From Amycolatopsis sp. FBCC-B4732 (GTDB taxonomy: Bacteria; Actinomycetota; Actinomycetes; Mycobacteriales; Pseudonocardiaceae): a stretch of 64,000 nucleotides of DNA. Location: contig NZ_CP095376.1 in NCBI RefSeq assembly GCF_023008405.1, positions 520,001 to 584,000 on the forward strand. Direction: 5' to 3'. This document shows positions 8,099 through 48,970 of this stretch, piece by piece. Position numbers and translations under genes: made by a program. Positions within the stretch are counted from its first letter, which is position 1. The number at the start of each line of letters is the position of its first letter. Below the pieces are notes generated by a model. The model was not told where the DNA came from, did not search any database, and saw only the letters and a program-made list of their open reading frames with translations.

Positions 8099-8100
8099 GG

Positions 8101-8943: not shown

Positions 8944-9063
8944 GCCTCACCTCCGAATTGGATGGTTTTTCCTCGGCCGCACCTTTTCCTTGCGGTACCG
9001 GGGAATCCGGTGTGCACCCCAGTGTGCCGCAAACCCGCCGCCGCGCGCTGCCCGGGCGGGTGA

Positions 9064-13365: not shown

Positions 13366-13667
13366 ACTCGGGTCCTCACTATGTCTCGGGGTGCCAGACC
13401 GGGCACCACCCCCCGAATCGCGCAGGGCCGCGAGGTCGGTTACGGTGCCCCGTGACGCACCAATCCGGCGCGGGCGTCGCTGTCTACGGTGACGGTTCAG
13501 CGCGGTGCACGGCCAGTGAGTCCCGCATCGCCGTGCCATGTGTTTCACACCCCAAACCATGCGTTTTGCATGACTTCTCCGTGTTTGCCGCACTGGTTGA
13601 GTAGACCTCGTGTGGAGCAGGATTCAGATTCTCGTCCCGCCCCACCCGGCTACCGGCAGGAGAGCCC
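13366..13667. promoter_or_regulatory. Divergent regulatory region between HxlR gene and azole-peptide operon
   Basis: 302 bp without a gene. It holds two palindromic words close together: CATGTGTTTCACAC (13537-13550) and CATGCGTTTTGCATG (13557-13571). They lie 96-131 bp before the cyclodehydratase start and 172-207 bp before the HxlR start. The same words recur at 20750, 30323 and 54792, making this the best operator candidate in the window. Confidence 0.6.
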
Positions 13668-15974
13668 ATGCGCACGACGGCTGTCAACGCACGGGTCCCG
13701 GAAGACGGCGGCGCGGTGCCGACGCGGGCCCCCGCCTTCCGCCGGCACCTCCGCGCCGAGGTCAGGGCGGGCAAAGGGGCGTACCTGTTCTCCGAGCAGG
13801 GCGTGATCGCGATGCGCGGGGCGAAGATCGAGTCGCTCGCGGCGCTGCTGGACGGGACCCACGACCTCGACGGGCTGCTGCGCGACCGGCCCGGCGGGAT
13901 GGCCCCGGAAGAGGTTGCCGCGCTGCTGGCGCAGCTGGTCGACGCCGGTCTGGTGACGTTGCGCAGCCAGGGAGAAGACGACCGGGCCGGCGACGAACGC
14001 GCGCTGGCCTACTGGGACGCGTGCGGCGTGGACGCCGACCTCGTCGCCGCACGGCAGGGCACCGTGCGGCTGACGGCGGTCGGGGACAGCGCCGACGGCG
14101 TCGACCCCGGCGCGGTCGAGCGGGCGCTCGCCGGTGCCGGGCTCGGGGTGGTGCGCGCCGACGCCGGGGCCGCCGACCTGTCGGTCGTGCTGTGCGCCGA
14201 CTACCTCGACCCGCGGCTGGCCGAAGTCGACGCCGAACACCGGCGGGCCGGGCGGCCGTGGCTGCTGGCGCGCCCGTTCGGCGCCCAGGTGTGGATCGGC
14301 CCGGTGCTGCAGCCGGAAGGCGCCTGCTGGCACTGCCTGACCCACCGGCTGTGGGGTCACCGGCACGCCGAAGCGTGCGTGCAGGAGGAGCTGGGCCACG
14401 CCGGCCCGGCGCGCCGCCCGATGCCGGCGTTGCCGCCGCTCACCTCGGCCGCGGCGCACCTCGTGGCGCTGGAAGCGGCCAAGTGGGTGGCCGGCTACCG
14501 CTACCACGGCCAGCAGTGCGTGTGGACGCTCGACACCCTCGACCTGCAGGGCCGCCTGCACGAGCTGCGCCGCCGCCCGCAGTGCCCGGGTTGCGGCGAC
14601 CCGTGGCAGGTGGCGTGGCGCTCGGTCCGGCCGGTGACGCTGCAGCCGGCGAAGAAGGCGACCACCGGCGGCGGCGGGCACCGCACGGCGACGCCGTCAC
14701 AGATGCTCGAGCGGCACCGGCACCTGATCAGCCCGATCACCGGGATCATCAAGGAGATCCAGCCGGACCCGGCCGCGCCGCCGTTCGCCAACGCCTACCG
14801 CTCCGGGCCCAACGTCGCCCGCGGCATCACCGGGATGGCCGCGCTGCGCGCCGGGCTGCGCTGCGAAAACGGCGGCAAGGGCGTCAGCCCGCTCGACGCG
14901 GAGGTCAGCGCGCTCTGCGAGGCGGCGGAACGCTTCTCCGGCAACTTCCAGGGCGACGAGCTGCGCATTCGCGGCTCCTACGACGAGCTGGAGGACGAAG
15001 CCGTCCACCCCAACGCCTGCATGCTCTTCGCCGGGCGGCAGTACGCCGACCGCGAGGCGTGGAACCGCGCGCACGCCGACTTCCAGCACGTCCCCGAGCC
15101 GTTCGACACGTCGGCCCGCACCGACTGGACGCCGGTGTGGTCGCCGTCCGGGCGCCGCCGCCTGCTGCCGACGTCCTACCTCTACTACGGGACCCCGCGG
15201 GTGAGCGCGGCGCGCGGGGTGCGCGCCGATTCGAACGGCGCGGCGGCGGGCAGCAGCCTGGAGGACGCGATCCTGCAGGGCGCGCTCGAGCTCGTCGAAC
15301 GCGACGCCGTGGCGCTGTGGTGGTACAACCGCACGCCGGTGCCGGGCGTAGACCTCGCCTCGTTCGCCGACGCGTGGCTCGAGGAGATGGCGGGCAACTA
15401 CGTGGCGATCGGCCGCGAGCTGTGGGTCCTCGACGTGACCTCCGACCTGGGGATCCCGGTGGCCGTCGCGCTTTCGCGGCGGACCGACGGGCCGCACGAG
15501 GACATCATGATGGGCTTCGGCGCGCACCTCGACCCGCGGATCGCGGTGCGCCGCGCGGTGACCGAGCTGAACCAGATGCTGCCGGTCGTGCGGGAAGGCG
15601 GCCGCGGCCTCGACGACCCGGACGCGCGGCGCTGGCTCGCCTACGCGACCGTCGCGAACCAGCCGTACCTGCGACCGGCGGCCGGGCAGCGGATGCGGAC
15701 CGCGGCGGACTTCCCGTTCGTCAACCGGCCCGACGTCCGCGACGACGTCGAGGCGCTGGGCAAGGTGTTCGACCGCGCGGGCCTGGAGCTGCTGGTGCTC
15801 GACCAGACCCGCCCGGACGTCGGGATCCCCGTGGTCAAGGTGCTCGTGCCCGGCCTGCGCCCGTTCTGGGCCCGGTTCGCGCCCGGCCGCCTCTTCGACG
15901 TCCCGGTCGCGCTGGGCAGGCTCGAGGCGCCGACTCCGTACGAGCGGCTCAACCCGTTCCCGATGTTCCTCTGA
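13668..15974 (+). CDS. Fused E1-like/YcaO TOMM cyclodehydratase
   Basis: A 768-residue fusion. The N-terminal half (about 20-350) is an E1-like/ocin-ThiF partner domain that binds the precursor leader. It has two zinc-type CxxC pairs (Cys220/223 and Cys306/309). The C-terminal half (about 360-768) is a YcaO domain ending in the proline-rich NPFPMFL tail needed for cyclodehydration. Such C-D fusions convert Cys, Ser and Thr of a precursor peptide to azolines using ATP. The ATG follows AGGAGAG. It is followed by a SagB-type oxidase, and no peptide gene directly precedes it; the best precursor candidate is at 21049. Confidence 0.9.
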   Translation: MRTTAVNARVPEDGGAVPTRAPAFRRHLRAEVRAGKGAYLFSEQGVIAMRGAKIESLAALLDGTHDLDGLLRDRPGGMAPEEVAALLAQLVDAGLVTLRSQGEDDRAGDERALAYWDACGVDADLVAARQGTVRLTAVGDSADGVDPGAVERALAGAGLGVVRADAGAADLSVVLCADYLDPRLAEVDAEHRRAGRPWLLARPFGAQVWIGPVLQPEGACWHCLTHRLWGHRHAEACVQEELGHAGPARRPMPALPPLTSAAAHLVALEAAKWVAGYRYHGQQCVWTLDTLDLQGRLHELRRRPQCPGCGDPWQVAWRSVRPVTLQPAKKATTGGGGHRTATPSQMLERHRHLISPITGIIKEIQPDPAAPPFANAYRSGPNVARGITGMAALRAGLRCENGGKGVSPLDAEVSALCEAAERFSGNFQGDELRIRGSYDELEDEAVHPNACMLFAGRQYADREAWNRAHADFQHVPEPFDTSARTDWTPVWSPSGRRRLLPTSYLYYGTPRVSAARGVRADSNGAAAGSSLEDAILQGALELVERDAVALWWYNRTPVPGVDLASFADAWLEEMAGNYVAIGRELWVLDVTSDLGIPVAVALSRRTDGPHEDIMMGFGAHLDPRIAVRRAVTELNQMLPVVREGGRGLDDPDARRWLAYATVANQPYLRPAAGQRMRTAADFPFVNRPDVRDDVEALGKVFDRAGLELLVLDQTRPDVGIPVVKVLVPGLRPFWARFAPGRLFDVPVALGRLEAPTPYERLNPFPMFL

Positions 15975-16023
15975 GCGTCCCGTGGGAAGCTCGGTTTTCG
16001 CAGTTCGCTTGAGGAGTTCCGCC

Positions 16024-17469
16024 TTGCCTGCACACCGCCAGGAGGGGATCCCGGAGACCGTCCGGCTCTGGTCCCTCACCGAAGACACCCTGCTGGAGGC
16101 GGGGGACGACGACACGATCGTCGCCATCACCTGGTGGGGTGAGTACGAGCTGGCGGACATCCCCGGTCCGGTCCGTGAGTCGCTCGGCCGGATGGTGCTC
16201 GGCCCGGTCTCGATGGGCAACCTCGCCTCGTCGGCCAGCGGTGGCACCGAAGCCTGGGCGGGGGCGCTGCGCAAGGCGCTGAACCGGTTGTCCGGCTCGG
16301 TCGTGCACTCGCTGGCGCTCAACGACGGCCGCGGGCCCCTGCTTTCGGCGATCCCGGTGACGCAGTTCCCGGTCTTCCCGAGCGATCCGGTGCAACCGGG
16401 CCGGCTCATCAAGCTTTCGCGGTTCTCGGCCATGCGCCCGGACGGTGGCGGGCTGCTGCTCGAATCGCCCCGCGCCCGGTACCGCGTCGCGCTGCTGCGC
16501 CCGGCGGCGGTGACCGTCGCGTCGTCGCTCGCCCGGCCGGTCACCGTCGCCCAGGTCGCCGAGACGACCGGGCTGACCGAAGCGGTGGTGGCCGACATCG
16601 CGGCGTTCCTGGTGTCCGCCGGCGTGGTGCTCGCGGCCGACGACTGGGCGGAGTTCGCCGAGGACGGCGACGACGACCTCGCCGCCTGGTCGCCCGACGA
16701 CCTGATGTTCCACGCGCGCAGCCGGACGTGGCAGAAGGGCGGGTCCTCGGAACCGGGGCCGCGCCGCACCGGCGCCGAGCCGCCGGTGGTCAAGCCGATC
16801 ACGGCGGGCCCGACCTTCCCGTTGCACCGCCCCGACCCGGCGGTGCTCAAGGCGGCCGACCCGACGCTGAGCTCGCTGCTCGAAGAAGACCACCTGTGCC
16901 CCGAGGTCACCGAGCGCGCGTTGTCGGCCGAGCAGATCGGCGAGTTCCTCTTCCGCGCCGCGCGGGTGCGCTCGATCGGGCCGACGTACCTGCCCGGCGG
17001 GCCCGGCCACGAGGCGTCCCAGCGGCCGTACTTCAGCGTCGCCTGCCTGTACGAGCTCGAAATCTACGTCGCCGTCAACCGGTGCGCGGGCCTCGGGCGC
17101 GGGATCTACCACTACGACCCGCTGTGGCACACGCTGACGCTCATCAACGACGACGCGGTGGCGCTGGACGGCATGCTGGACCTGGCGATGATCGGCGCCG
17201 GCAGCCACCGCAGGCCGTCGGTGCTGCTGACGATGACCGCGCGGATGTCGCGGATCGCGTGGGTGCTCGGCAGCGCCGCATACGCGACGACCCTGCTGCA
17301 CGTCGGCGCGCTCCAGCAAGTCCTGTACCTCACGGCGAAGGCGATGGGCCTCGCCGCGCACGCCGTGCCGGTCGACGCCGGCGACCGCGTCGACCGCTCG
17401 CTGAAGCTGGAGTGGCCCGCCGAAGTGAGCGTCGGCGAGTGCGTCCTCGACTTCCCCGGGGTCGGTTGA
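16024..17469 (+). CDS. SagB/ThcOx-family azoline dehydrogenase
   Basis: A 481-residue flavoprotein. The nitroreductase-like FMN domain occupies the C-terminal 230 residues (FLFRAARVRSIGP, then YFSVACLYELEIYVAVNRCAGLGRG in pieces, and a C-terminal AKAMGLAAHAVPV). The N-terminal 250 residues form the extra winged-helix region seen in SagB proteins. It oxidises azolines to azoles after YcaO. TTG at 16024 is chosen because GAGGAG lies 6 bases upstream; GTG at 15982 is the alternative. It is 49 bases after the YcaO gene and in one operon with it. Confidence 0.85.
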   Translation: MPAHRQEGIPETVRLWSLTEDTLLEAGDDDTIVAITWWGEYELADIPGPVRESLGRMVLGPVSMGNLASSASGGTEAWAGALRKALNRLSGSVVHSLALNDGRGPLLSAIPVTQFPVFPSDPVQPGRLIKLSRFSAMRPDGGGLLLESPRARYRVALLRPAAVTVASSLARPVTVAQVAETTGLTEAVVADIAAFLVSAGVVLAADDWAEFAEDGDDDLAAWSPDDLMFHARSRTWQKGGSSEPGPRRTGAEPPVVKPITAGPTFPLHRPDPAVLKAADPTLSSLLEEDHLCPEVTERALSAEQIGEFLFRAARVRSIGPTYLPGGPGHEASQRPYFSVACLYELEIYVAVNRCAGLGRGIYHYDPLWHTLTLINDDAVALDGMLDLAMIGAGSHRRPSVLLTMTARMSRIAWVLGSAAYATTLLHVGALQQVLYLTAKAMGLAAHAVPVDAGDRVDRSLKLEWPAEVSVGECVLDFPGVG

Positions 17470-17537
17470 CCCCTGAATCCGGCGGGCCGCCCTGTTACCT
17501 TGGAGTCACTGGGGTGCGGGGTGACGCGGGAGGGGCC

Positions 17538-18731
17538 GTGGTTTATCCGGTGCGGGTGCGCGGTGCACGGCTTCGGAGGCGGACCGCGCCGCTCGCGGGC
17601 GAGCGGCAGGAATCCCGCGCGCTCGTGCTCGGCGCGCAGGCCGTGGCCGCCGTCGGGGTGGCCGTGCTGGCCGCACTGCCGGTGCTGACCGGTGCCCAGC
17701 CCTGGTTCCTCAAGCCGATCGCGCTGGTGTGCGCCGCGGGGCTGGTGGCCGGGCACCTCGCCTGGTTCGCCCGTGGCCGCGTCCGGCGTCCGTGGCTGGC
17801 CCTGACCGTGCAGGCCGTGCTGGGATTCGGGCCGTTGCTGGCGCTCGGGGAGCCGTGGAGCACGGCGGGCGGCTTCTTCGCCGGCGGGCTGCTGCTGGTG
17901 TCCCCGCCGGCCAGAGCGGTGCCGTGGGCGCTGCTCGCGTGCGTCGTGGCCGGGGTCGTTTCGGCGCTGCCGGGCTGGCCGGCCGGGTTGCTCGACGCGG
18001 GGGTGGGGAGCGCGGTGTCGGCCGGGGTGGCGGCGCTGTCCCTATTCGGGCTCGCGACGGCCGCGCGGGTGGTCGCCGGGCGGGCGGAGGAGGTGTGCGA
18101 GCTGAAGCGCCGGACCATCGCCGAGGAACGCATGCGCTTCTCCCGAGACCTCCACGACCTGCTGGGATTGAGCCTTTCGGCCATCACCCTCAAGGGTGAA
18201 CTCGTCGACCGCATGGTGCCCGGCAAGCCGGAGCTGGCCAAGGCGGAACTGGCGGAGCTGCTGGTGATGTCCCGGCGCGCGCTGGCCGACGTCCGCACGA
18301 TCGCGGCGGGCTACCGCGAACTGTCCCTGGAAGAGGAGTGCCGCGCGGCGGCGGACGTGCTGAGCGCGGCGGGCACCCGCGTGACGGTCGCCCGCTCCGG
18401 CATCGGCGAGCTGCCGCCGCCGGTGGCCACGACGCTGGGGACGGTGCTGCGCGAAGGGGTGACGAACGTGGTGCGCCACAGCACGGCGAGCTGGTGCGCG
18501 TTCTCGGTGAGCACCGAGGACGGCACGGCCTGGCTGGAGATCGTCAACGACGGCGCGGGCGGCGCCGGCGGCGGTGGTGCGGGTTCGGGCGCGGGACTGC
18601 GGAACCTGGGCGACCGCGTGGCGGCGATGAACGGGACGTTGACGACGGAAGTGGGCCAGGACGGCACCCACCGCCTGCTGGTGGCGATCCCGGTCGGGTC
18701 GGTGCGCAGGGAACGCCCGAAGGCGAGCTGA
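17538..18731 (+). CDS. Sensor histidine kinase, HisKA_3/NarX-DesK type
   Basis: A 397-residue kinase with four to five N-terminal membrane helices (about 28-175), a dimerisation/phosphoacceptor helix SRDLHDLLGLSLS with His206, and a HATPase domain (VLREGVTNVVRHS, EIVNDG, GAGLRNLGDR). The GTG at 17538 has GGGAGGGG upstream. It lies 68 bases after the azoline dehydrogenase and is probably in the same transcript. Its sequence closely resembles both halves of the tandem kinase at 22.2-24.6 kb; the two response regulators nearby are the likely partners. Confidence 0.88.
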   Translation: MVYPVRVRGARLRRRTAPLAGERQESRALVLGAQAVAAVGVAVLAALPVLTGAQPWFLKPIALVCAAGLVAGHLAWFARGRVRRPWLALTVQAVLGFGPLLALGEPWSTAGGFFAGGLLLVSPPARAVPWALLACVVAGVVSALPGWPAGLLDAGVGSAVSAGVAALSLFGLATAARVVAGRAEEVCELKRRTIAEERMRFSRDLHDLLGLSLSAITLKGELVDRMVPGKPELAKAELAELLVMSRRALADVRTIAAGYRELSLEEECRAAADVLSAAGTRVTVARSGIGELPPPVATTLGTVLREGVTNVVRHSTASWCAFSVSTEDGTAWLEIVNDGAGGAGGGGAGSGAGLRNLGDRVAAMNGTLTTEVGQDGTHRLLVAIPVGSVRRERPKAS

Positions 18732-18963: not shown

Positions 18964-19569
18964 TCAGAGCCACTCGGCTTCGGTGGCGATGCGGATCGCG
19001 TGGACCCGGTTGCGGGCGTTCAGCTTCGTCACCACCGCGGCCAGGTAGTTGCGGACCGTGCCCGCCGACAGGAACAGCTCGGACGCGATGTCGGCCACCG
19101 TCCGGCCGCGCGCTGCCAGTGACAGGATCTCGATCTCGCGCGGGGTCAGCGGGCAGTCGTCGGTTTCCCAAGCGGCCAGTGCCAGTTCGCTGTCGATGAC
19201 CCGGCGTCCGATCGCGACCGAGCGGACCGCGTTCGCCAGCTTGTCCGACGGCGCGTCCTTGAGCAGGAAGCCGTTCACCTTGGCGTCCAGCGCGCGGCGC
19301 ACCGTGCCCGGGCGGCCGAGGCTGGTCAGGATCAGCGTGTGGACGTCGGGCAGGCTCTCGTGGATCTCGATGGCGGCGGACAGGCCGTCCTTGCCCGGCA
19401 GGTCGATGTCGATGATCGCGACGTCGGGCTGTGCCGCCTTCGCGGCGGGCAGGATCTGGTCCCCCGTGGACACCTCGGCCACGACCTCGATGTCGGATTC
19501 GAGGTTCAGCAAGGCGACGAGCGCGCCGCGGACCATGTGCATGTCCTCGGCCAGCAACACCTTGATCAC
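18964..19569 (-). CDS. NarL/FixJ-family response regulator (copy 1)
   Basis: A 201-residue regulator. The receiver domain has acidic pair Glu8/Asp9, phospho-acceptor Asp54 (DIDLPGKDG), switch residue in LTSLGRPG and LKDAP lysine. The C-terminal LuxR-type helix-turn-helix (LTPREIEILSLAARGRTVADIA, then AGTVRNYLAAVVTKLN) binds DNA. GTG at 19569 is chosen over GTG at 19584 because the paralogue at 21541 begins at the identical residue with GGAGG before it. It faces the kinase gene convergently. The two regulators are near-identical in length and layout, evidence of a local duplication. Confidence 0.9.
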   Translation of the reverse strand: MIKVLLAEDMHMVRGALVALLNLESDIEVVAEVSTGDQILPAAKAAQPDVAIIDIDLPGKDGLSAAIEIHESLPDVHTLILTSLGRPGTVRRALDAKVNGFLLKDAPSDKLANAVRSVAIGRRVIDSELALAAWETDDCPLTPREIEILSLAARGRTVADIASELFLSAGTVRNYLAAVVTKLNARNRVHAIRIATEAEWL

Positions 19570-19842
19570 GACGGTACCTCGCACCCCAGTCCGACGACTC
19601 CGAACAGTAATTGTACGCCATTGCCCCGCACCGCCGGAGTTTCGCGGAAGTGAAACCCCGATCGCGCACCGGAGGAGAATGCCCCCTCAATTCCCGCGCG
19701 CTTACCCGAGATAGGCACTTACCCGCAATCCCGCGGCCGATGACGGCACGTTGGGCCGAACGGCCGCGGGTGCTCCCCAGTACCCCACGCCGCCCGCACC
19801 CCGGCGGGCGGCGGCTTCCCCAGTGACTCCCCAGTGCGTGCT

Positions 19843-20595
19843 TCAGCTCGCCAGCGAACGCGAAACGGCGGCCTGGCGCAGGTCCGGGAGGGCCAGCAGG
19901 ACCGGCGGGTCGAAGCCGTGGCGCGGGCGCAGCCGGACGTCGGCCAGGCTCGCCGTGACGCCGCGCTGGATGGTCACCGGGCCGGTGAGGCCGGTGAACG
20001 GCCGCAGCCCCTGGTTGCCGTCCAGCGGGCAGCTGCCGAACGCGTGGGTCAGCACGTACCACGACCCCAGCGGAACGTCTGCCAGCGCGTACGGCCCGGG
20101 ACCGGGCACGACGACGTGCCGGGCGGGGGTACCCTCGGCGATCCGGGCGCTGAAGAGCCCGATGAACACCGGCCCGACGTCGGCCGGCGAGGAAAGGCGC
20201 AGCTGCCCGCGCACCGTGGCACCCGAGCCCGGCTCGGCCTGCCGGTCGGCGATCCGCGGCGCCATGCCGTGCAGCTGGCGGTAACCGGACGGCGAGACGC
20301 CGACGCTGCCGCTGAACCGCGCGCTGAAGGTGCCGACGCTGTTGTACCCGACCTGGTGGCTGATGTCGGCCACCGAGATGACGGTGGTCGCGAGCAGGCG
20401 TTTCGCCTCCGCCAGCCGCAGCGCCGAGAGGAACCGGCCGGGCGAGAGCCCGGTGACCCGCAGGAACACGCGGGTGAAGTGGAACTTGCTGAACATGGCC
20501 GCGCGGGCGAGGTCGTCGATCGTGAGCCGCTCGCCCAGGTTGTCTCGCATGGTCACGATCGCTCGCGCCACAGCTTGCCGGACGATCTCATCCAT
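19843..20595 (-). CDS. AraC-family regulator with GyrI-like-sized C-terminal domain
   Basis: A 250-residue protein with an N-terminal AraC double helix-turn-helix (residues 18-110: LTIDDLARAAMFSKFHFTRVF, then ISVADISHQVGYNSVGTFSARF). The C-terminal 140 residues are a probable ligand domain I cannot name. The N-terminal HTH order is the reverse of classical AraC and is shared with the paralogue at 30659-31564. A TGCGTTTTGCA palindrome lies 155 bp before its start. It diverges from the candidate precursor gene, so it may control the peptide. Confidence 0.82.
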   Translation of the reverse strand: MDEIVRQAVARAIVTMRDNLGERLTIDDLARAAMFSKFHFTRVFLRVTGLSPGRFLSALRLAEAKRLLATTVISVADISHQVGYNSVGTFSARFSGSVGVSPSGYRQLHGMAPRIADRQAEPGSGATVRGQLRLSSPADVGPVFIGLFSARIAEGTPARHVVVPGPGPYALADVPLGSWYVLTHAFGSCPLDGNQGLRPFTGLTGPVTIQRGVTASLADVRLRPRHGFDPPVLLALPDLRQAAVSRSLAS

Positions 20596-21048
20596 GGTGG
20601 GCCGTCCTTCCGGTCGAGGATGCCGCCCGATCGCCCGCCGAAGCAGGCACCCGGTGCGGGAATTGATTTCGACTAAAACTGTAGATCCGCCGCCGTCTAC
20701 TTCTTAAGTGCTCTGTGCACCGGTCGACGTGGATTTCACCGGTGGTCGACATGCGTTTTGCACATGCCCTGTTTGTGGGGGTTCGGGGCGGGTAGCCGAC
20801 GTGCACCGGACGTGTGTCACCCGTGACGGTGATAGCAAAGCGCAGCCGGATGACCGCGCTTCGTCACGAAATCGGTGTGCTCAGCTCCCGATTCGACTTC
20901 TTGTTAGGCCGTTCGGAGTCCGCTCCGGAACCGCACGGACCATGTGTAAGCCACAGCGCCCCGATGATGCGGGCACTGGCTGTCGTTGCGTCCGTCGGCG
21001 ACGATTTATGGCACGTGAAGCATTCATCTTCGCCACTGGGAGCAAAAA
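20596..21048. promoter_or_regulatory. Divergent regulatory region, AraC gene / candidate precursor gene
   Basis: 453 bp with no convincing gene. It contains CATGCGTTTTGCACATG at 20750-20766, the same palindrome as before the azole-peptide operon. GTGTGTCACCCGTGACGGTG (20811-20830) adds a CACCCGTGACGGTG mirror-like element. The GC content falls to unusually low levels near 20840-21060 (for example CATTCATCTTCGCC and AGCAAAAAATG), as expected for a promoter and leader before a highly expressed small gene. Confidence 0.5.
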
Positions 21049-21225
21049 ATGTCCGCACAGGTTTCTGCTGACGTCCGCGCACTTTTCGCCGATATGGGTA
21101 TCGAGTTCGAGAAGGCCGCGACCGATCTGGCCATCGACCGCTTCGAGCAGTGGAGCAACCGCGGCGCCGACCTCCGTCCCGTCATGGGCACCATCTGCAA
21201 CATGGACCTCCTCGAAGCCGCCTGA
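21049..21225 (+). CDS. 58-residue peptide, candidate RiPP (TOMM) precursor
   Basis: ATG at 21049 with GGGAG six bases upstream; stop TGA at 21223. The product has an acidic, amphipathic helical leader-like stretch (ADVRALFADMGIEFEKAA, residues 7-24, then a second helix to Trp35), followed by RGADLRP and a C-terminal MGTICNMDLLEAA carrying the only cysteine (Cys50) next to Thr48. This leader/core layout, the lone TIC cyclisable site and the location inside a YcaO-SagB locus suggest an azole-peptide precursor. It is 5 kb from the cyclodehydratase and flanked by AraC and a response regulator, so it could instead be a signalling peptide. I recognise no known family. Confidence 0.6.
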   Translation: MSAQVSADVRALFADMGIEFEKAATDLAIDRFEQWSNRGADLRPVMGTICNMDLLEAA

Positions 21226-21540
21226 GGTCTGTTTGCGCAGTTCCTGACGGTGCCGAGCCGGTCTCGACGGATGCCTCCCGTGTCCGCTGCGACCGGCTCG
21301 TCGCATGTGGAGGGCCCGAGTGTCCACACTCGCCGGCCGGTGACTTTCCCACCGGACCGCCGGTACGCTCGTCACGGCCGGTAGCCGTCCGGTCGCGAGC
21401 TGGTATTTTTAACCTGGTACTTACCTGGTGCGGAGTATTCCCGCCGCGGTGACGGCAAAGTGGTGCCCGAATGGTGCAACCGATTCGTCAAGCAGAATGT
21501 TTAACTGAGCTTCTGGGGAATCGTGAGTGCGGAGGCACCC
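21226..21540. promoter_or_regulatory. Intergenic region upstream of response regulator 2
   Basis: 315 bp without a credible gene. It includes a tandem ACCTGGT pair (TTTTTAACCTGGTACTTACCTGGT, overlapping 21405-21430) and an AT-rich patch unusual for this genome, probably the promoter/operator of the response regulator gene. A CCGGTA/TACCGG-type inverted segment near 21355-21385 could end the precursor transcript. Confidence 0.4.
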
Positions 21541-22146
21541 GTGATCAGAGTGCTGGTTGCCGAGGACATGCACATCGTGCGGGGCGCACTGGTCGCCCTG
21601 CTGCGGCTGGAGCCCGACATCGAGGTCGTCGCGGAGGTCGCGTCCGGGCTGGAGATCCTGCCCACCGCCAGGGCCAAGCAGGCGCAGGTGGCGGTCATCG
21701 ACATCGACCTGCCGGGCAAGGACGGGCTCACGGCGGCCGGTGAGCTGCACGAACAGCTGCCGGAGTGCCGGACGCTCATCCTGACCAGCCTGGGCAGACC
21801 GGGGACGCTCCGGCGCGCGCTGGACGCCAAGGTGGGCGGGTTCCTGCTGAAGGACGCACCGCCCGACAAGCTGGCCAACGCCGTCCGCGGGGTCCTCGCG
21901 GGCCGCCGCATGGTCGACGGGGACCTGGCGCTGGCGGCCTGGGACACGGTGGACTGCCCGCTCACCGGCCGCGAGCTGGACGTGCTGCGGATGACCGCGC
22001 AGGGCTACGGGACCGTCGAAGTCGCCGCGCGCCTGTACCTGTCCGCCGGCACGGTCCGCAACTACCTGACGACCGTCGTCGCGAAGCTCAACGCCCGCAA
22101 CCGGGTCGACGCCATCCGCATCGCCGAGGAGTCCGGCTGGCTCTGA
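21541..22146 (+). CDS. NarL/FixJ-family response regulator (copy 2)
   Basis: A 201-residue regulator aligned without gaps to the one at 18964-19569. Receiver residues Glu8/Asp9, Asp54 and the LKDAP lysine are kept, and the LuxR-type HTH (LTGRELDVLRMTAQGYGTVEVA, in part, then SAGTVRNYLTTVVAKLN) is intact. GTG at 21541 has GGAGG five bases upstream; an earlier GTG at 21523 would place that site inside the gene. It converges on the tandem kinase gene across a strong terminator and lies 315 bp after the candidate precursor gene. Confidence 0.9.
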   Translation: MIRVLVAEDMHIVRGALVALLRLEPDIEVVAEVASGLEILPTARAKQAQVAVIDIDLPGKDGLTAAGELHEQLPECRTLILTSLGRPGTLRRALDAKVGGFLLKDAPPDKLANAVRGVLAGRRMVDGDLALAAWDTVDCPLTGRELDVLRMTAQGYGTVEVAARLYLSAGTVRNYLTTVVAKLNARNRVDAIRIAEESGWL

Positions 22147-22198: not shown

Positions 22199-24604
22199 TC
22201 AGACCGGTACGACCGCGCGCAACCGGAAGCGGCCGTCCGGCTCGACCCCGGCGGTGAGTTCGCCGCCGAGATCGGCCACCCGGTGCGACAGGTTGCCGAT
22301 CCCGCTGCCCGGCGAGGTGTCCCGCGACGCGACGACGACGTCCGGGCGCCGCGGTGCGGGCACCACCGGCTCTTCCCCGGCCGCGTCCGGCGCTTGAGGA
22401 CGGTCGGGGCGGGTGCCGTTCCCGGTGCGCTCGACGCCGTCGTTGACGATGTCGAGGCAGATCCCGTTGTCCGTGCGGCGCATGGCGATCTCGCAGCTCT
22501 CGACCCGGCTGTGCCGCAGCACGTTCGTGACGCCTTCGCGCAGTACGACGGCGAGCACCGTCCGCACCGGCATCGGCAGGTCGTCCTCGAGCATCTCCAT
22601 CCGCACCCGGACGTCGGCGGCCGCCAGCACGGACTTCGCGGTGCGTGACTCGCTGTCGAGGGACAGCTCGCGGTAGCCGCTGGCGACCGACCGGACGTCG
22701 GAAAGGGCTTGCCGCGTCAGGCCGAGCACTTCGGTCAGCTCCTCGGCGGCGCGGTCGCGGTCCAGCGGCAGCACCCGCGCGGTCAGCTCGCTCTTCAGCG
22801 CGATCGCCGACAGGCTCATGCCGAGCAGGTCGTGCAGGTCGCGGGCGAACCGGAGCCGTTCCTCGGCCAGCGCCATCTCGGCCAGCCGGCGCCGGGTGCT
22901 GTCGAGCTCGGCGACCAGCCGCACCAGCCACAGCAGCCCGAACACGGCCAGCCCGGTCATCACGGTCGCGGCGGTGTAGTAGACCGTCGAGATGACGTCC
23001 GCGCCGGAGAACCGCTGGATCTCGGCGTAGACGGCGATGTTCACCGCGAAGAACGCCCAGCCCGCCACCGGCGGCAGGACCAGCAGCCCGCTGCCGATCA
23101 GCAGCCCGGGCACGCTGACCCAGTTCGCGCCCAGCGGCAGCAGCGGCAGGTAGGTCAGGCAGATCTGGACGAAGAGCATGCCGTAGCTCTGCCCCGACCG
23201 CAGTTGCGTCGACGGCCGGTTGAAGTACGAGAACTGCAGGGCCAGCAGCGCCAGCACGCAGCCGACCACCAGCGTCACCTGCCACGCCTGGGTGGTCAGC
23301 TGGAGCACGTGCACGGTCGCGCCGCACCCCATGATGGCCATGCACGCCGGCAGCAGCCAGCGGATCCGCTTCGACTCGCTCGTGCCCTGCCGCTCGGTCT
23401 CGCGATCGGCGGAGCCCATCGTCCGGTCGGCCACCGGGAGGTCGACGCGCAGCCGGAAGCGGCCGTCCGCGCCGGCCTTCACGGTCGCGGTGCCGCCGAG
23501 CGCGGCGACCTCGTCGGGCAGGGCGGTCAGCTTGCTGTCCGGGGCGAGCGCGGCGTCGTCCGCCGTCACCCCGTCGTTGACGATCTCGAGGGTGACCTTG
23601 CCGTCGTGGTGCCGGACGTCGATCTCGCAGTGCTCGACTTCGCTGTAGCGCAGGACGTTCGTGACGCCTTCGCGCAGCACCCGCGCGAGCAGCGTGCGGG
23701 CCTGCACGGGCAGGTCGCCCTGGTCCAGGTGGATCTGCACGGCGATGTCGGAGGCCGACAGCAGCGTCTCGGCCGTCCGGGACTCCTTCTCCAGCGACAG
23801 CTCCCGGTAACCGTGGGAGACGGCCCGGACGTCGGAGAGGGTGCGCTGCGCGGTGGCGGTGATCTCGGCGAGCTCGGCCTTGGCGCGCTCGGTGGACTTG
23901 CGCATCAGCCGGTGCACCAGCTCGCCCCGGAGCGCGATCGCGGACAGGCTCAGCCCGAGCAGGTCGTGCAGGTCGCGGGCGAAGGCCAGCCGCTGCTCGG
24001 CGACCGCGCGCTGGGCCAGTTCGGTGCGGGCCTGGTGCAGTTCGTTGACCAGCCGGACGAGCCGGGCAAGCAGGTAGAACAGGAAGCAGTAGAAGGCGGC
24101 CGCGAGCCCGTTGTAGATGGCGGACAGCGGCTCGGCGTCGAAGATCCAGTAGACGAAGACGACGCTGAGGCAGACCGTCACGAGCGTGGGCCACGCCCAC
24201 CGGGGCGGCAGCACGAGCAGCGCCGCGCCGCCGACGAAGTCCGGCATGTCCGCCCAGTAGACGCCGAAGGTCAGGATGGGGAGGTAGGCCAGGACGACGA
24301 CGACGGCGAGCAGGACCCGGCTGGTCGCCGAGTCGAGCTGGGCGCTCGGCCGGCTGAACCACAGCAGCTGGATCGCGAGCAGCCCGGCGACGGCGGCGAT
24401 CGCGTACACGGCGTGCAAGCCGTCGACCGACGTCGGCAGCAGGTTCACCACGCCGACCACACCAAACCCGGCGACCACGACGACGACGATCGCCGCCGCC
24501 AGGTAGGTGGCCAGCCGTGGCCGCCGGTCCGCCGCGGTCGTGCCGCGGGGCTCGGCGGTCGCTGAGCGCCCGGTGGGCGGCTCGAGTGCGGCGACCGGAG
24601 ACAT
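22199..24604 (-). CDS. Tandem fusion of two complete sensor histidine kinases
   Basis: An 801-residue protein made of two full kinases. Half one (1-405): membrane helices, ARDLHDLLGLSLS with His213, HATPase VLREGVTNVLRYS and EIVNDG. Half two (406-801): a second membrane block (SKRIRWLLPACMAIMG onwards), ARDLHDLLGMSLS with His591, VLREGVTNVLRHS, DIVNDG and GIGNLSHRV. The first HATPase lacks a clear GxGL/N-x-G2-type lid (it reads TALPDEVAALGG), whereas the second retains GSGIGNLSHR, so half one may be catalytically weak. ATG at 24604 is preferred; ATG at 24676 is possible but has a poor ribosome site. Confidence 0.9.
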   Translation of the reverse strand: MSPVAALEPPTGRSATAEPRGTTAADRRPRLATYLAAAIVVVVVAGFGVVGVVNLLPTSVDGLHAVYAIAAVAGLLAIQLLWFSRPSAQLDSATSRVLLAVVVVLAYLPILTFGVYWADMPDFVGGAALLVLPPRWAWPTLVTVCLSVVFVYWIFDAEPLSAIYNGLAAAFYCFLFYLLARLVRLVNELHQARTELAQRAVAEQRLAFARDLHDLLGLSLSAIALRGELVHRLMRKSTERAKAELAEITATAQRTLSDVRAVSHGYRELSLEKESRTAETLLSASDIAVQIHLDQGDLPVQARTLLARVLREGVTNVLRYSEVEHCEIDVRHHDGKVTLEIVNDGVTADDAALAPDSKLTALPDEVAALGGTATVKAGADGRFRLRVDLPVADRTMGSADRETERQGTSESKRIRWLLPACMAIMGCGATVHVLQLTTQAWQVTLVVGCVLALLALQFSYFNRPSTQLRSGQSYGMLFVQICLTYLPLLPLGANWVSVPGLLIGSGLLVLPPVAGWAFFAVNIAVYAEIQRFSGADVISTVYYTAATVMTGLAVFGLLWLVRLVAELDSTRRRLAEMALAEERLRFARDLHDLLGMSLSAIALKSELTARVLPLDRDRAAEELTEVLGLTRQALSDVRSVASGYRELSLDSESRTAKSVLAAADVRVRMEMLEDDLPMPVRTVLAVVLREGVTNVLRHSRVESCEIAMRRTDNGICLDIVNDGVERTGNGTRPDRPQAPDAAGEEPVVPAPRRPDVVVASRDTSPGSGIGNLSHRVADLGGELTAGVEPDGRFRLRAVVPV

Positions 24605-24785
24605 CAGTGCGGACCCCCCGGAGTCTGCGCGGCGGCCGGTCCGCTCGGGAGGCCGGAACCTGGACGCGGTGTGCATGGCGTGCGGTAGATCCTAACTCAC
24701 GGGAGCGCGCCGAAAACGGTGCGAAAGCGCGCGGAACGGGCCCGGTGGCCCCTTCGGACACCGGGAATCGGAGGTGGCGGCCTGG

Positions 24786-29353: not shown

Positions 29354-30160
29354 TCAGCGGTGGTCGCCTTCGGAGATCAGCTCCCGGTGCAGCGTCTGCA
29401 GGTCGTCGCACGGTTCGACGCCCAGCTCCCCGGCCAGCCGGGACCGGAGTCTGCGGTAGACGGACATCGCGTCGGACCGCCGTCCGCTGCGCCCGAGCGC
29501 GCGCATCAGCTGCCCGTGCAGGGCTTCGTCGAGCGGGCTGCCCGTGGTCAGCGAACGCAGTTCGCCGATCAGCTCGCGGTGCCGCCCGCCGATGATCTCG
29601 GCTTCGATCCTCAGGTGCAGCACGCTGCGTCGCTGCTCCAGCAGTTCGGTCCGGTACGCGGACAACACCGGTCCACAGTGGACGTTCGCGAACGGCGTGC
29701 CGGACCACAGGTCCAGCGCCGCGCGGTAGGCGTCCGCGGCGGCCGAGTGATCGCCGGCGTCCTGGTGCTCGTGACCGATCTGCTGCAGCCGGGTGAAGTC
29801 GTACGTGTCCACCTGGGCCGGGTCGATGTGGAACGTGTAACCGGATTGTTTGGTGGTCAACATCTTTTCGCCGTCCCCCGCGAGCTTGTTCTGGTCGATG
29901 CACCGGCGGAGGTGGTAGACGTAGGTGTGCAGGGTGGTCCGGACCGTCCGCGGCGGGTTGTCCGACCAAAGCTCCCGGATCAGGGTGTCGATGTGTACCA
30001 TCTTCCCCGGTCGCATCACGAGCACGGCCAGCAGCGCCAGCACCTTCGGCGTCGTCGGGGCGTAGTCGGTTCCCTCACGCAGCACTTCCAGCGGCCCCAG
30101 CACGGTGAAGCGGACGCCACCGGGGTCCGGCTCGTCGGTTCGCCGCTGTTCGGAGTACAT
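29354..30160 (-). CDS. SARP-family transcriptional activator
   Basis: A 268-residue protein with an OmpR-type winged-helix domain (residues 17-112, TPKVLALLAVLVMRPGKMV) and a bacterial transcriptional activation domain with TPR-like repeats (about 118-265). SARPs are pathway-specific activators that bind heptameric direct repeats near cluster promoters. It is divergent from the AraC regulator and faces away from the enediyne cassette. It is probably the main activator of the cluster. Confidence 0.9.
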   Translation of the reverse strand: MYSEQRRTDEPDPGGVRFTVLGPLEVLREGTDYAPTTPKVLALLAVLVMRPGKMVHIDTLIRELWSDNPPRTVRTTLHTYVYHLRRCIDQNKLAGDGEKMLTTKQSGYTFHIDPAQVDTYDFTRLQQIGHEHQDAGDHSAAADAYRAALDLWSGTPFANVHCGPVLSAYRTELLEQRRSVLHLRIEAEIIGGRHRELIGELRSLTTGSPLDEALHGQLMRALGRSGRRSDAMSVYRRLRSRLAGELGVEPCDDLQTLHRELISEGDHR

Positions 30161-31595: not shown

Positions 31596-32591
31596 ATGTC
31601 CACTGTCATCGGAGTGCTCCGCAAGCGGGTGCTCGCTCCTTCGCTCGCCTCGGTCGGGTTCGCCGACCGCGGCTTCCCGGTCACCCACACCGACGCGACG
31701 GCCCGGCTGGAGGCGGTGCCGCAGGCGGTGGTGTGCGGGTTCGAGTGGGCCATCGAAGGGGCTTCGCTGTGGGAGATCGAGCGGCGCCTCGCGCTGATCG
31801 AGCCCGAGCAGCGCGGCTTCGCCTACGAAGGCGCCACGATGGGCTACACGATCCTCGACGCGATGCCCGGCGGCGGCCGCAACCGCACGCGCGAGCTGCT
31901 CGAAGGACCGGGCCGCCCGCACATCTTCCTGACCTACATCGGGATCGGCTTCGCGATGGCGCGGCTGCCGCGTCCACTGTGGAAGAACATCCTGCCCGAG
32001 CTGAGCGGGGTGGCCTACCACCCGGTGATGAGCTGGCTCGCCGTCGACGGCTTCGGCTTCGACCGCGCCTACTTCGACACCGAAAAGTGGGTCGGCGAGC
32101 AGGCCGAGCCACAGCCCTACCCGTGGGCGGGGCGCCCGGAGTACTTCGCGCGCGCCTTCGACCAGGGCGTCGGCCGGGCGCTGTGGTTCATCAACGGCGG
32201 CAACCCCGAAGCCGCGGCCGCCGCGGTCGGGCGGTTCGCCGAGGGGCGGCGGGCGGACCTGTGGAGCGGGGTCGGGCTCGCCGCGACCTTCGCCGGCGGG
32301 GCCGACCAGGCCGGGCTCGGCAAGCTGCGGCGGCTGGCCGGGGAGCACTACGACGAGCTCGCGCTCGGCGTGGTGTTCGCCGTCAAGGCCCGCACGTACT
32401 CCGGCTACGTCCCGGCCCACACGCACCTCGCGGCCGGCGTGCTCACCGACCTGTCGGTGCAGGGCGCGCAGAACCTCGCGGACCGCACCGAGCGGGCCGA
32501 CGGCGAGGACGGGCCGGAACCCGCGTACGAGCTGTGGCGGCAGCGGATCCGCGACGAATTCGACGTCGCCGCGAAGCGTCGCGCGAGCTGA
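31596..32591 (+). CDS. unbL: Enediyne cassette protein UnbL-like (DUF1702), copy 1
   Basis: A 331-residue DUF1702 protein. EQRGFAYEGATMGYTILDA, RPHIFLTYIGIGFAMARLP (in parts), FDQGVGRALWF and a C-terminal YELWRQRI are shared with the next gene. DUF1702/UnbL proteins belong to the conserved enediyne warhead cassette (with UnbV, UnbU, PKSE and thioesterase) but their reaction is unknown. The duplication of this family is unusual relative to the minimal cassette. The start is ATG after CGTAAGGACG. Confidence 0.85.
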   Translation: MSTVIGVLRKRVLAPSLASVGFADRGFPVTHTDATARLEAVPQAVVCGFEWAIEGASLWEIERRLALIEPEQRGFAYEGATMGYTILDAMPGGGRNRTRELLEGPGRPHIFLTYIGIGFAMARLPRPLWKNILPELSGVAYHPVMSWLAVDGFGFDRAYFDTEKWVGEQAEPQPYPWAGRPEYFARAFDQGVGRALWFINGGNPEAAAAAVGRFAEGRRADLWSGVGLAATFAGGADQAGLGKLRRLAGEHYDELALGVVFAVKARTYSGYVPAHTHLAAGVLTDLSVQGAQNLADRTERADGEDGPEPAYELWRQRIRDEFDVAAKRRAS

Positions 32592-32724
32592 GGCGGATTC
32601 CGCACTCGCGGAGAGGCCAGGCCCGCCCACGCAAATGTGGAGTAGAGCGCTGACCAGCGAATCTGTGACCGTAGAAGGCGAAGAAGCGACACCTTCCTAT
32701 TCGACCCGTAAGGGGGAGAGTGCG

Positions 32725-33708
32725 TTGGGCAATGGTTGGCGCGCGCTCAGACGGCGCATCCTGACACCGAATGTCTCGGAGACCTCGCTGGAGAAGCGGG
32801 GTTTCCACCGGAAGAGCCCAGCCGCTCAAGAACGGCTCGAGACGGTCGGGGAGAAGTTCCTCCTCGGTTACGCACACGCGGTCGAAGCCCGGTCGGTCGA
32901 GCAGGCCGAAGAATGGCTCGAGCAGATCCCGACGCAGTTCCGCGGGTTCGCCTACGAGGGCGCGGGAATGGGGTACGGCGTTCTCGACGGGCTGCCCTTC
33001 GGCAAGAGCACCAACATCGCCGAGTTCCTGGCCGGCCCGGGTGAGAAGCACGACTACATCATCTACGTCGGGGTCGGCTGGGCGATGTGCCGGCTCCCGC
33101 GGTTCGCGTGGCCGAAGGCGTCGGCCTTCGACCCGCTGCTGCGGTGGCTGGTGCTCGACGGCTACGGCTTCCACCAGGCGTACTTCAAGACCGAGAAGTA
33201 CATCCGGCAGCAGCACCAGGACCAGGGCTTCTCCTGGCCGGACCGGCGCTACGACGGCTACGCGCTGCGGGCCATCGACCAAGGCATCGGCCGGGCGCTG
33301 TGGTTCATCTGCGGCACCGACGTCGAGCTGGTGACCAAGACGATCGAGGAGTTCCCCGAGTCGCGCCACGGCGACCTCTACGCCGGGGTCGGGCTGGCCT
33401 CGACCTACGCGTGCGGCGTCACCGCCGACGAGCTGGCGGAACTGGTCGACCGGGCCGGGATCCACCACGGGCCGCTCGCCCAGGGCAGCGCGTTCGCCGC
33501 CGAGTGCCGGGTGCGCGCGGGCCTGATGATCCCGGAGACCGAAATGGCGGCCCAGGCCATCTGCGGGATGTCCGCCGAACGCGCCGCGGCCATCACGCAA
33601 GAGGTCCGGCCGGCCGTGGTCGTCGACGGCGACGACGTCCCGGCGTTCGAAACCTGGCGGCAGCGGATCGCCGAAGAAGTGCTGACCCACGGAGGGAAGA
33701 ACAAATGA
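32725..33708 (+). CDS. Enediyne cassette protein UnbL-like (DUF1702), copy 2
   Basis: A 327-residue DUF1702 paralogue (FRGFAYEGAGMGYGVLDGLP, IDQGIGRALWFICG, FETWRQRIAEE). TTG at 32725 is chosen because GGGGGAGAG lies upstream and the product then begins in register with copy 1 (GNGWRALRRRILTP versus VIGVLRKRVLAP); ATG at 32635 would add 30 residues. Its stop overlaps the unbV start (ATGA), so it is coupled to the membrane/secretory part of the cassette. Confidence 0.85.
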   Translation: MGNGWRALRRRILTPNVSETSLEKRGFHRKSPAAQERLETVGEKFLLGYAHAVEARSVEQAEEWLEQIPTQFRGFAYEGAGMGYGVLDGLPFGKSTNIAEFLAGPGEKHDYIIYVGVGWAMCRLPRFAWPKASAFDPLLRWLVLDGYGFHQAYFKTEKYIRQQHQDQGFSWPDRRYDGYALRAIDQGIGRALWFICGTDVELVTKTIEEFPESRHGDLYAGVGLASTYACGVTADELAELVDRAGIHHGPLAQGSAFAAECRVRAGLMIPETEMAAQAICGMSAERAAAITQEVRPAVVVDGDDVPAFETWRQRIAEEVLTHGGKNK

Positions 33709-35678
33709 CCGCGACCTTCGGCTGGCTGCGCAAGCAGCTGGCGGGCATCGTGGCGCTGGTGCTGGTCCTCGGCCTGTTCCTGGTCGCACGGCTGCCCAGC
33801 GTTTCCGCCGCCGAACAGGACAAGCTGGCGGACCAGTTCCACTTCACGCCGATGACGATCGCGCTGCCCGCGGCCACGAAGTCGCAGTCGATCCGCACGG
33901 TGAACAAGGAGTACGAGCACATCGCCGCGTGGATCTCCTCGGTCGGCGCCGCGATCGCCATCAACGACATCAGCGGCAGCGGCAAGGCGAACGACCTCTG
34001 CCTGGTCGACCCGCGCAGCGACCAGGTCGTCATCACGCCGGCGCCGGACTCCGGCCCGCGGTACGCGCCGTTCGCGCTCGACCCCGCCCCGGCGCTGCCG
34101 ACGTGGGACTACATGGCGCCGATGGGCTGCGTGCCCGGTGACTACAACGAGGACGGCCGCACCGACATCCTGGCCTACTACTGGGGCCGGACCCCGGTGC
34201 TGTTCCTGCAGAAGGCGAACGCGACCAAGTTCGACGCGTCCGCGTTCCAGCCGACCGAACTGGTGCCGGGCAACCACCGCGGAGCCGACGGCAAGTACAA
34301 CGGTCCACTGTGGAACACCGACTCCGTCACCATCGGCGACTTCGACGGCGACGGCCACGTCGACATCTTCGTCGGGAACTACTTCCCGGACAGCAAGGTG
34401 CTCGACCCGAACGCCGACGGCGGCATCACGCTGAACCAGTCGATGTCGCACGCCACGAACTCCGGCGGCAAGTTCATCTACCGGTGGACGGGCGCCAAGT
34501 CCGGGGCGAACCCGTCGGCGAGCTTCGTCGACGCGTCCCAGGGGATCCCGGAGAGCGCGCGCCTCGGCTGGACGCTGGCTTCCAGCGCCACCGACGTCGA
34601 CGGGGACAACCTGCCCGAGCTCTACATCGCCAACGACTTCGGGCACGACCACTTCCTGTACAACAAGTCCACGCCGGGCCACGTCGAGTTCGGCGAGGTC
34701 AACGGGGTCCGCGGGATCGCCGACCCGAAGTCGAAGGTGCTGGGCCACGACTCCTTCAAGGGGATGGGCGTCGACTTCGGCGACCTGAACCACGACGGCC
34801 TCTACGACCTGTTCGTCAGCAACATCACGACGTCGTGGGGCATCGAAGAGTCGAACTTCCAGTTCATGAACCGGGCCAAGGACAACGCGGACCTCACCGC
34901 GCAGCTGAAGGACGGGGTCGCGCCCTTCCACGACGACAGCGGCTCGGCGGGCACGGCGTGGTCCGGCTGGGGCTGGGACGTCAAGATCCAGGACTTCAAC
35001 AACAGCGGCGAGAACCAGATCGCCCAGGCGACCGGGTTCGTCAAGGGCCAGGTCAACCGCTGGCCGAACCTGCAGGAGATCGCGACCGCGCACGACGGCC
35101 TGCTGTCCAACCCCTTCTGGTGGCCGAACGCCCGCGCCGGTGACGACATCGGTGGCGACCAGACCCTGCACTTCTTCGTGAAGAGCGCCGACGGCCGGTA
35201 CGTCGACCTCGCGCCGAAGCTGGGCCTGGCGGTGCCGGTCCCGACCCGCGGCATCGCCGTCGGCGACACCGACGGGGACGGCCTGCCCGAGTTCGCGGTG
35301 GCGCGGCAGTGGGAGCAGCCGATCTTCTACCACAACGACAGCCCGAACCCCGGCAAGTTCCTGCAGCTGAAGCTGACCACCGACGCCCCGGTGGCGCCCG
35401 GCCCGCTGCCCGCGGCCGGCCCGCCCGCGATCGGCGCCCAGGTCACCGTGACGACCTCGGACGGCAAGAAGTACCTCGGCCGGGTCGACGGCAGCAGCGG
35501 TGAAGCCGGCCGGCGCAGCTTCGACATCCAGATCGGTCTCGGCCAGAACGTCAGCGGCCCGCTCGACGTGCACCTGCAGTGGCGGGACCGGACCGGGCAG
35601 CTGCGGACGCAGGACCTGAAGCTCGAACCCGGTTGCCACATGTACCAGCTGGGCTCCACGGCGAAGGAAGCGATGTGA
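33705..35678 (+). CDS. unbV: Enediyne cassette protein UnbV (secreted FG-GAP/ASPIC-UnbV protein)
   Basis: A 657-residue exported protein. A signal sequence or anchor covers residues 12-35. Calcium-type FG-GAP repeats follow (GDYNEDGRTDI, DFDGDGHVDIF, DVDGDNLPELY, DLNHDGLYDLF, DTDGDGLPEFA), and the C-terminal 110 residues form the ASPIC/UnbV domain (GAQVTVTTSDGKKYLGRVDG). This is a hallmark cassette protein, with an unknown biochemical role outside the membrane. The ATG overlaps the previous stop; GGAGGGAAG lies six bases upstream. Confidence 0.92.
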   Translation: MTATFGWLRKQLAGIVALVLVLGLFLVARLPSVSAAEQDKLADQFHFTPMTIALPAATKSQSIRTVNKEYEHIAAWISSVGAAIAINDISGSGKANDLCLVDPRSDQVVITPAPDSGPRYAPFALDPAPALPTWDYMAPMGCVPGDYNEDGRTDILAYYWGRTPVLFLQKANATKFDASAFQPTELVPGNHRGADGKYNGPLWNTDSVTIGDFDGDGHVDIFVGNYFPDSKVLDPNADGGITLNQSMSHATNSGGKFIYRWTGAKSGANPSASFVDASQGIPESARLGWTLASSATDVDGDNLPELYIANDFGHDHFLYNKSTPGHVEFGEVNGVRGIADPKSKVLGHDSFKGMGVDFGDLNHDGLYDLFVSNITTSWGIEESNFQFMNRAKDNADLTAQLKDGVAPFHDDSGSAGTAWSGWGWDVKIQDFNNSGENQIAQATGFVKGQVNRWPNLQEIATAHDGLLSNPFWWPNARAGDDIGGDQTLHFFVKSADGRYVDLAPKLGLAVPVPTRGIAVGDTDGDGLPEFAVARQWEQPIFYHNDSPNPGKFLQLKLTTDAPVAPGPLPAAGPPAIGAQVTVTTSDGKKYLGRVDGSSGEAGRRSFDIQIGLGQNVSGPLDVHLQWRDRTGQLRTQDLKLEPGCHMYQLGSTAKEAM

Positions 35679-42438: not shown

Positions 42439-42689
42439 AAATCCATTGTAGACGGTGCGGGTCCCTTGTCCCAGCGTGCTGACGTGCGCGCCGCGGGCAG
42501 GGAGAGAGAAGACCGCCCGCACCGGCCGGGAGATGCTGGACTTCAACGGCCCGGCGGACGGGCACTCCGGGCGGCGCGGCCGCCCGAGGAGACAGACCGG
42601 CGGTGGGGCTCGAGCCCCGCACCGGAGGACAGCGGGGACCTGATGGTCCCGGTGATACGGGGCTCGAGAGCCAGTGGGAGTGCGGTGGC

Positions 42690-48515: not shown

Positions 48516-48517
48516 AG

Positions 48518-48970
48518 ATGACCGACTACTACGAGATCCGCCACACGGTCGGCTTCGAAGAGACCAACCTGGTGGGCAACGTCTACTACGTGAACTACGT
48601 GCGCTGGCAGGGCCGGTGCCGCGAGATGTTCCTGAAGGAGAAGGCGCCGGCGGTGCTCGAAGAGGTCCGCCACGACCTCAAGCTGTTCACCCTCAAGGTG
48701 GAGTGCGAGTTCTTCGCCGAGATCACCGCGTTCGACGAGCTGTCCATCCGGCTGCGCCTGGAGGAGCTCACCTCCACGCAGATCCAGTTCGCGTTCGACT
48801 ACGTGCACCTCACCGAGGACGGCGAGGAGCGCCTGGTGGCCCGGGGACGGCAGCGCATCGCCTGCATGCGCGGCCCCAACACGGCCACCGTGCCGTCGCG
48901 GGTCCCCGAGCAGCTGCGCGAGGCGCTGGTTCCCTACTCGACGGCCGCGGTCAACGGCAAGGGAGTCTGA
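48518..48970 (+). CDS. Enediyne thioesterase (SgcE10/CalE7-type hot-dog fold)
   Basis: A 150-residue hot-dog thioesterase. The signature EETNLVGNVYYVNYVRWQGRCREMF (residues about 13-37, in parts) is characteristic of the TEBC cassette protein, which releases the polyene from PKSE by hydrolysis and decarboxylation. The ATG is two bases after the PKSE stop, with GAGGGGAAC as ribosome site. PKSE and TE adjacency is universal in enediyne clusters. Confidence 0.95.
   Translation: MTDYYEIRHTVGFEETNLVGNVYYVNYVRWQGRCREMFLKEKAPAVLEEVRHDLKLFTLKVECEFFAEITAFDELSIRLRLEELTSTQIQFAFDYVHLTEDGEERLVARGRQRIACMRGPNTATVPSRVPEQLREALVPYSTAAVNGKGV

Follow-up and report, generated by a model that had tools for sequence, protein, structure and literature searches.

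A candidate precursor of a cyanobactin-like azol(in)e RiPP near sensor kinases and an enediyne-type polyketide synthase cluster in Amycolatopsis

Related peptide systems and the enzymes of the Amycolatopsis locus

In nisin-type autoinducing RiPPs, the genes for the peptide, its modifying enzymes, and a kinase/regulator pair occur together. The cyanobactins patellamide, trunkamide, and aesturamide depend on a PatD/TruD/LynD heterocyclase together with an oxidase. Passages of PMC4663559 on these enzymes name Cys, Ser, and Thr as targets of cyanobactin heterocyclases and give patellamide cores, ITVCISVC and VTACITFC, that carry a [ST]xC unit. From Mobiluncus and Rhodococcus, Cox 2015 (PMC4603692) named a presumed TOMM class, mobilisin, and described it as a fused cyclodehydratase with a B protein and a short, hand-found peptide poor in Cys, Ser, and Thr; that description does not mention kinases, a SARP, or a PKS. 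According to the same paper, sparse cores of this sort escape automatic detection. Goadsporin, an actinobacterial azole RiPP, likewise combines a fused cyclodehydratase with a B protein (PMC4603692), and its clusters also have split lanthipeptide-like dehydratases.

The locus described here lies in a 64,000-nucleotide stretch of the Amycolatopsis sp. FBCC-B4732 genome (NZ_CP095376.1, positions 520,001 to 584,000), which we call the window. On its forward strand is a gene for a 768-amino-acid protein (13668..15974) that matches PF02624, TIGR03604, and TIGR03882 and aligns over its full length with LynD and TruD (547 and 534 bits over residues 25-766 and 23-766, respectively, C-terminal PxPM included). 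It encodes the fused E1-like and YcaO cyclodehydratase of azol(in)e RiPP (TOMM/LAP) loci, in the PatD/TruD/LynD-like form found in cyanobactins, recognition region included. The next gene on the same strand (15982..17469; TIGR03605, PF22767) encodes a SagB/ThcOx-type dehydrogenase of 495 amino acids, whose residues 107-487 align with the cyanobactin oxidase CyaGox.

Together with a precursor that has a conserved leader, a Cys/Ser/Thr-bearing core, and the [ST]xC unit (see below), these enzymes resemble those of cyanobactins. Unlike in cyanobactins, however, a Pfam scan of 39 window ORFs recognised no subtilase, that is, no PatA/PatG-type protease/macrocyclase, the leader motif is a different one, and the Amycolatopsis peptide is linked to two-component systems and a PKS cluster. 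In contrast to goadsporin, the 39 scanned ORFs include no recognisable lanthipeptide dehydratase. They also include no ABC-kind transporter; the absence of both transporter and subtilase from this set, which leaves export and leader removal without an explanation, counts against the azol(in)e RiPP reading. The resemblance to mobilisin (fused cyclodehydratase, B protein, and sparse short peptide) is a comparison by description only. Relative to nisin-type RiPPs, the chemistry differs, and sensing of the Amycolatopsis peptide is a proposal only. We file the system as an apparently new variant among azol(in)e RiPPs, with mobilisin set beside it by description.

A conserved small gene and its association with YcaO

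The 58-codon ORF at 21049..21225 (forward strand, ATG to TGA) translates to MSAQVSADVRALFADMGIEFEKAATDLAIDRFEQWSNRGADLRPVMGTICNMDLLEAA. A ribosome-binding-site-like GGGAG (21038..21042, forward strand) precedes its ATG with a 6-base spacer. The original prediction had proposed a hidden gene with exactly these boundaries and this upstream motif, and both withstood analysis. The GC content at the three codon positions (0.64/0.44/0.80) is gene-like, and among seven close peptide sequences, the window's included, pN/pS is 0.51 (leader, 0.59; core, 0.45). A chance ORF was rejected on homology, synteny, codon pattern, and pN/pS. On sequence grounds, the ORF is a real, conserved coding gene. A profile of the peptide has a single match in the window's own genome (10.19 Mb, one contig). 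No model in Pfam or NCBIfam matches the peptide at an E value of 0.001, and the best PHROGs match reaches only 0.25, so membership in a curated family was rejected. No relative was found among viral contigs.

The gene lies among regulators. A histidine kinase with a HisKA_3 domain and an uncertain start (HK1; 17514..18731, forward strand) follows SagB, and LuxR-type response regulator RR1 (18964..19584) and an AraC-type regulator (19843..20595) are encoded on the reverse strand upstream of the peptide gene. Downstream are a second LuxR-type response regulator, RR2 (21523..22146, forward strand), an internally duplicated histidine kinase of 825 amino acids, HK2 (22199..24676, reverse strand), in which two HisKA_3 stretches stand in one chain and each half aligns with the region of the other, and a SARP-family activator (29354..30160, reverse strand).

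Within the genus, presence of the peptide follows presence of the enzyme. Searching 390 family genomes with the single peptide sequence gave matches in 51 at E ≤ 0.01, 49 of them in the same genus (the window's own counted). The YcaO query matches 70 of the 80 Amycolatopsis genomes at E ≤ 1e−20, and in 60 of them a copy is at least 59% identical (hereafter, close YcaO). The peptide profile (E ≤ 0.001) matches 57 of the 80 genomes, all of them among the 60 with a close YcaO and none among the 20 others (Fisher's exact test, P = 5e−16, shared descent ignored). The three remaining close-YcaO genomes also have the peptide: in G087 and G089 it lies directly upstream of YcaO (profile E values of 2e−4 and 5e−4 on the ORFs of those loci), and in G156 it was found by motif between RR2 and AraC. 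Within the genus, the prediction thus withstood its own refuting condition: of the 60 close-YcaO genomes, 57 have the peptide by profile and 3 more by inspection of loci, versus 0 of 20 others by profile. A more distant YcaO is present in 10 of these 20; in G085, G095, and G142, which have the distant form, a diverged small ORF of the same layout precedes YcaO, with weak or insignificant scores. Profile matches number up to four per genome (G097, G122), suggesting that one enzyme may serve several substrates.

Among 40 wide loci that we tabulated, YcaO, SagB, RR1, AraC, and the peptide are found together in 25, of which 24 also have RR2. Seven others have the peptide with RR2 and HK2 while YcaO falls outside the stretch, and in one, from another genus (L049), the peptide directly precedes YcaO. 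The last seven have the peptide without the window's neighbors or with just a weak regulator match; in one (L033), YcaO is on the same contig, 27 kb off, and the other six (L037, L040, L042, L044, L045, and L047) are extra precursor-like copies with CFTGACC-type cores, far from the YcaO of their own genome.

Beyond the genus, this YcaO type is present in 136 of the 390 family genomes at E ≤ 1e−140, a widespread enzyme for which a likely substrate can now be named. From these 136 genomes we drew 20 loci belonging to other genera, none longer than 9 kb. A fixed rule (a small ORF with the leader motif and a Cys, just before YcaO), for which the interval searched was anchored at the aligned start and the control was cleared of YcaO genes, picked out a peptide in 9 of the 20 loci versus 13 of 659 control starts (Fisher's exact test, P = 9e−10); an earlier version of the rule, whose control still included YcaO genes, gave 8 of 20 versus 30 of 777. 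Inspection by eye added eight peptides that the rule did not cover: six are Cys-less (L192, L194, L196, L200, L202, and L209), that of L204 has a long multi-core tail, and that of L205 has a variant motif. The other three loci (L190, L206, and L208) have no such peptide, which counts against the association. At the level of the class, YcaO was found at E ≤ 1e−60 in 30 of 394 genomes, the window's own included. There the expected co-occurrence held in part: 8 of 20 such loci, inspected over their full length, have this peptide type, whereas 10 do not, one of the latter (L157) having a different small ORF 5.6 kb away, and this again counts against the association. In the other two (L162 and L164) we found a long, Cys-rich precursor of a different kind. 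In other genera and in diverged loci, YcaO is often immediately preceded by the peptide gene. Very probably, the local E1-YcaO/SagB pair takes the window's peptide as its substrate.

Leader, core, and predicted modification sites

In an alignment of 31 peptides, the leader is conserved (VRxLFADLGIE, then LVIDRFExW), the C-terminal part is variable, and the core sequences differ strongly from species to species. In the window's peptide the leader motif is LAIDRFEQW (residues 27-35; 21127..21153, forward strand), which is conserved both in the alignment and in YcaO-adjacent peptides of other genera; we propose it as the recognition sequence that the enzyme would bind. The core, DLRPVMGTICNMD (residues 41-53; 21169..21207, forward strand; edges set by eye), matches repeat units of multi-core paralogues. 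These paralogues came from 15 short stretches upstream of YcaO copies that are either second or more distant ones; of these stretches, 12 have candidate peptides and 3 (L167, L173, and L181) have clear tandem core units with the repeat PV-x-[GA]-[ST]-[IV]-C-R. The multi-core sequence of L167 is EHPVKASVCRIEQPVMASVCRVEQPVMGSICRVDRPARPTICRAEQPVPAAG, one unit of which is matched by RPVMGTICNMD of the window core, and similar repeats are present in L204, from another genus. Alignment and paralogues together bear out the proposed leader/core layout.

The original prediction had placed the only cysteine beside a threonine and called the core unusually sparse. Cys50 (21196-21198) is indeed the only cysteine, but it is two residues after Thr48 (21190-21192) rather than adjacent to it (G47-T48-I49-C50). 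Cys, Ser, and Thr are indeed few, which makes this a precursor family of the sparse-core sort; the description has to be amended in that [ST]xC is a recurring unit, so that Thr48 is a candidate site beside Cys50. The unit is present in 35 of 67 cores, versus 10.4 on average in shuffled cores (standard deviation, 2.8; largest value, 23), a comparison that overstates significance because related sequences are not independent. The edges of these cores were set by eye, and they come from a set of 68 peptides, less one duplicate core, from which near-duplicates, second-locus peptides, and L204 are excluded.

Ten of the 68 peptides have no Cys, and three of these are main-locus Amycolatopsis peptides with YcaO and SagB present, which counts against the azol(in)e precursor reading. 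As a general rule, Cys as the sole modified residue was therefore rejected. Several of the Cys-less peptides carry GTIW, SIIW, or SIVW in place of the Cys unit. A [ST][IV] pair is retained in the Cys-less peptides of L070 (SIIW), L031 (SIVW), L041 (DTIG), L192 and L196 (both GTIW), and L202 (GTII), hinting that Ser/Thr, not Cys, may be the more constant modification site. Based on [ST]xC cores as in patellamides and on the LynD/TruD and CyaGox alignments, we predict that Thr48 is converted to a methyloxazol(in)e and/or Cys50 to a thiazol(in)e, and the [ST]xC core makes this chemistry directly open to test.

Genomic context and possible roles of the peptide

Downstream of the regulators are two tandem DUF1702 genes (31596..33708), an UnbV/FG-GAP ORF whose true start is probably later (33087..35678), a P450, an iterative-type PKS of 1970 amino acids with the domains KS-AT-KR-DH (42603..48515), and a 4HBT-type thioesterase (48344..48970); all those with coordinates given here are on the forward strand. 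A KS-AT-KR-DH PKS with DUF1702, UnbV, and thioesterase genes fits an enediyne-type PKS cluster; the domain order and DUF1702 agree with the account of such clusters given in part of PMC7692728. The cluster, at 31596-55433 of the window, is common to much of the genus. Titles and abstract openings in our literature search gave no account of the 58-amino-acid precursor or of a YcaO-enediyne link; in the literature searched, just one paper, a thiopeptide genome-mining study, contains both enediyne and YcaO.

DUF1702 is found in 68 of the 80 Amycolatopsis genomes, comprising 59 of the 60 with a close YcaO and 9 of the 20 others. In 57 of the 60, the distance between DUF1702 and the close YcaO is 3.6 to 19.3 kb; the exceptions are G107 and G108, in which the two are on different contigs, and G146, which has none. 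In G086, G116, and G156, the PKS is flanked by YcaO on one side and the peptide on the other, and coordinates suggest the same for G121. That YcaO, peptide, and PKS are still together after rearrangement speaks for a link in function. Beyond Amycolatopsis, 0 of the 20 class-level loci have DUF1702, and just 3 of the 20 from the same family do (loci of at most 9 kb). Of these 20 same-family loci, 18 have a histidine kinase, 15 SagB, 14 a response regulator, and 11 a SARP.

We consider the ORF likely to encode a precursor from which a cyanobactin-like azol(in)e RiPP is made. The leader motif LxIDRFxxW would bind the recognition domain of the E1-YcaO protein, which would cyclodehydrate Thr48 and/or Cys50 of the G-T-I-C unit; SagB would then oxidise the resulting ring or rings, and a putative protease would cleave off the leader and perhaps the C-terminal LLEAA. 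The mature small peptide might serve the surrounding pathway, most likely as a signal for the local kinases, a role that we put forward tentatively. The lasting association with sensor kinases and an enediyne-type cluster suggests that the modified peptide controls a pathway or is contained in it. It is quite conceivable, if short of probable, that a patellamide-like minimal azole peptide acts in the enediyne-type pathway, either as an autoinducer that HK2 senses and that turns on the cluster, or by forming part of the final molecule. RiPP and enediyne-type PKS would then work together as a single system.

The linkage of DUF1702 to YcaO and the position of YcaO and peptide on opposite sides of the PKS would also suit a modified peptide with no signal role that instead goes into the enediyne-type product as a building block or accompanies it as a protective partner. 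We regard this as distinctly unlikely, given how rarely DUF1702 accompanies YcaO outside the genus while kinases are retained, and given that no peptide-ligating gene was recognised among the scanned ORFs, which are part of the window's ORFs. Because kinase/regulator genes are a more constant partner than DUF1702, we lean, with low confidence, towards a signal and away from a building block. It seems somewhat unlikely to us that the peptide works on its own as an antimicrobial or as some other secreted azole peptide, tied to the PKS by shared inheritance and regulation only: the strong core variation between species and the existence elsewhere of YcaO-peptide units without PKS genes, such as the second locus of the window genome (L085), speak for it, but the PKS link survives rearrangement and neither a dedicated exporter nor an immunity gene could be recognised in the 39 window ORFs scanned.

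The position of the gene in the window's subclade, about 5 kb from YcaO, between AraC and RR2 and nearer to RR2, counts against a YcaO substrate and would fit a small regulator that acts unmodified in the RR2/HK2 or AraC system, as would the seven wide loci with RR2 and HK2 but YcaO outside the stretch. Diverged relatives, however, overlap or directly precede YcaO, tandem multi-core versions are ill-suited to a regulator, and the profile finds nothing in the 20 genus genomes without a close YcaO, all of which makes an unmodified regulator highly improbable.

The peptide region has on either side one of two similar regulators of the HxlR type whose C-terminal part is SCP2/alkyl-sulfatase-like (12673-13593 and 28588-29286). 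The AraC-peptide intergenic region contains a non-coding element of 19 bases, GTCTACTTCTTAAGTGCTC (20695..20713), that is invariant across 21 such aligned regions and is found once each in 63 of 209 loci examined, many of them overlapping. Its ACTT-CTT-AAGT pattern looks like a putative binding site; the idea of a shared regulator site was rejected, as it occurs once in the window even at three mismatches. At the second locus (L085), no SagB match was found within the 17 kb covered. The second E1-YcaO there (6923-9285; G000:C1, about 1498400-1500800) is 56% identical to that of the window, and its gene is overlapped by four bases by that of a peptide ending in CYTWVADPVRPSVSPCR. Related genomes have multi-core versions of the precursor at the counterpart of this locus.
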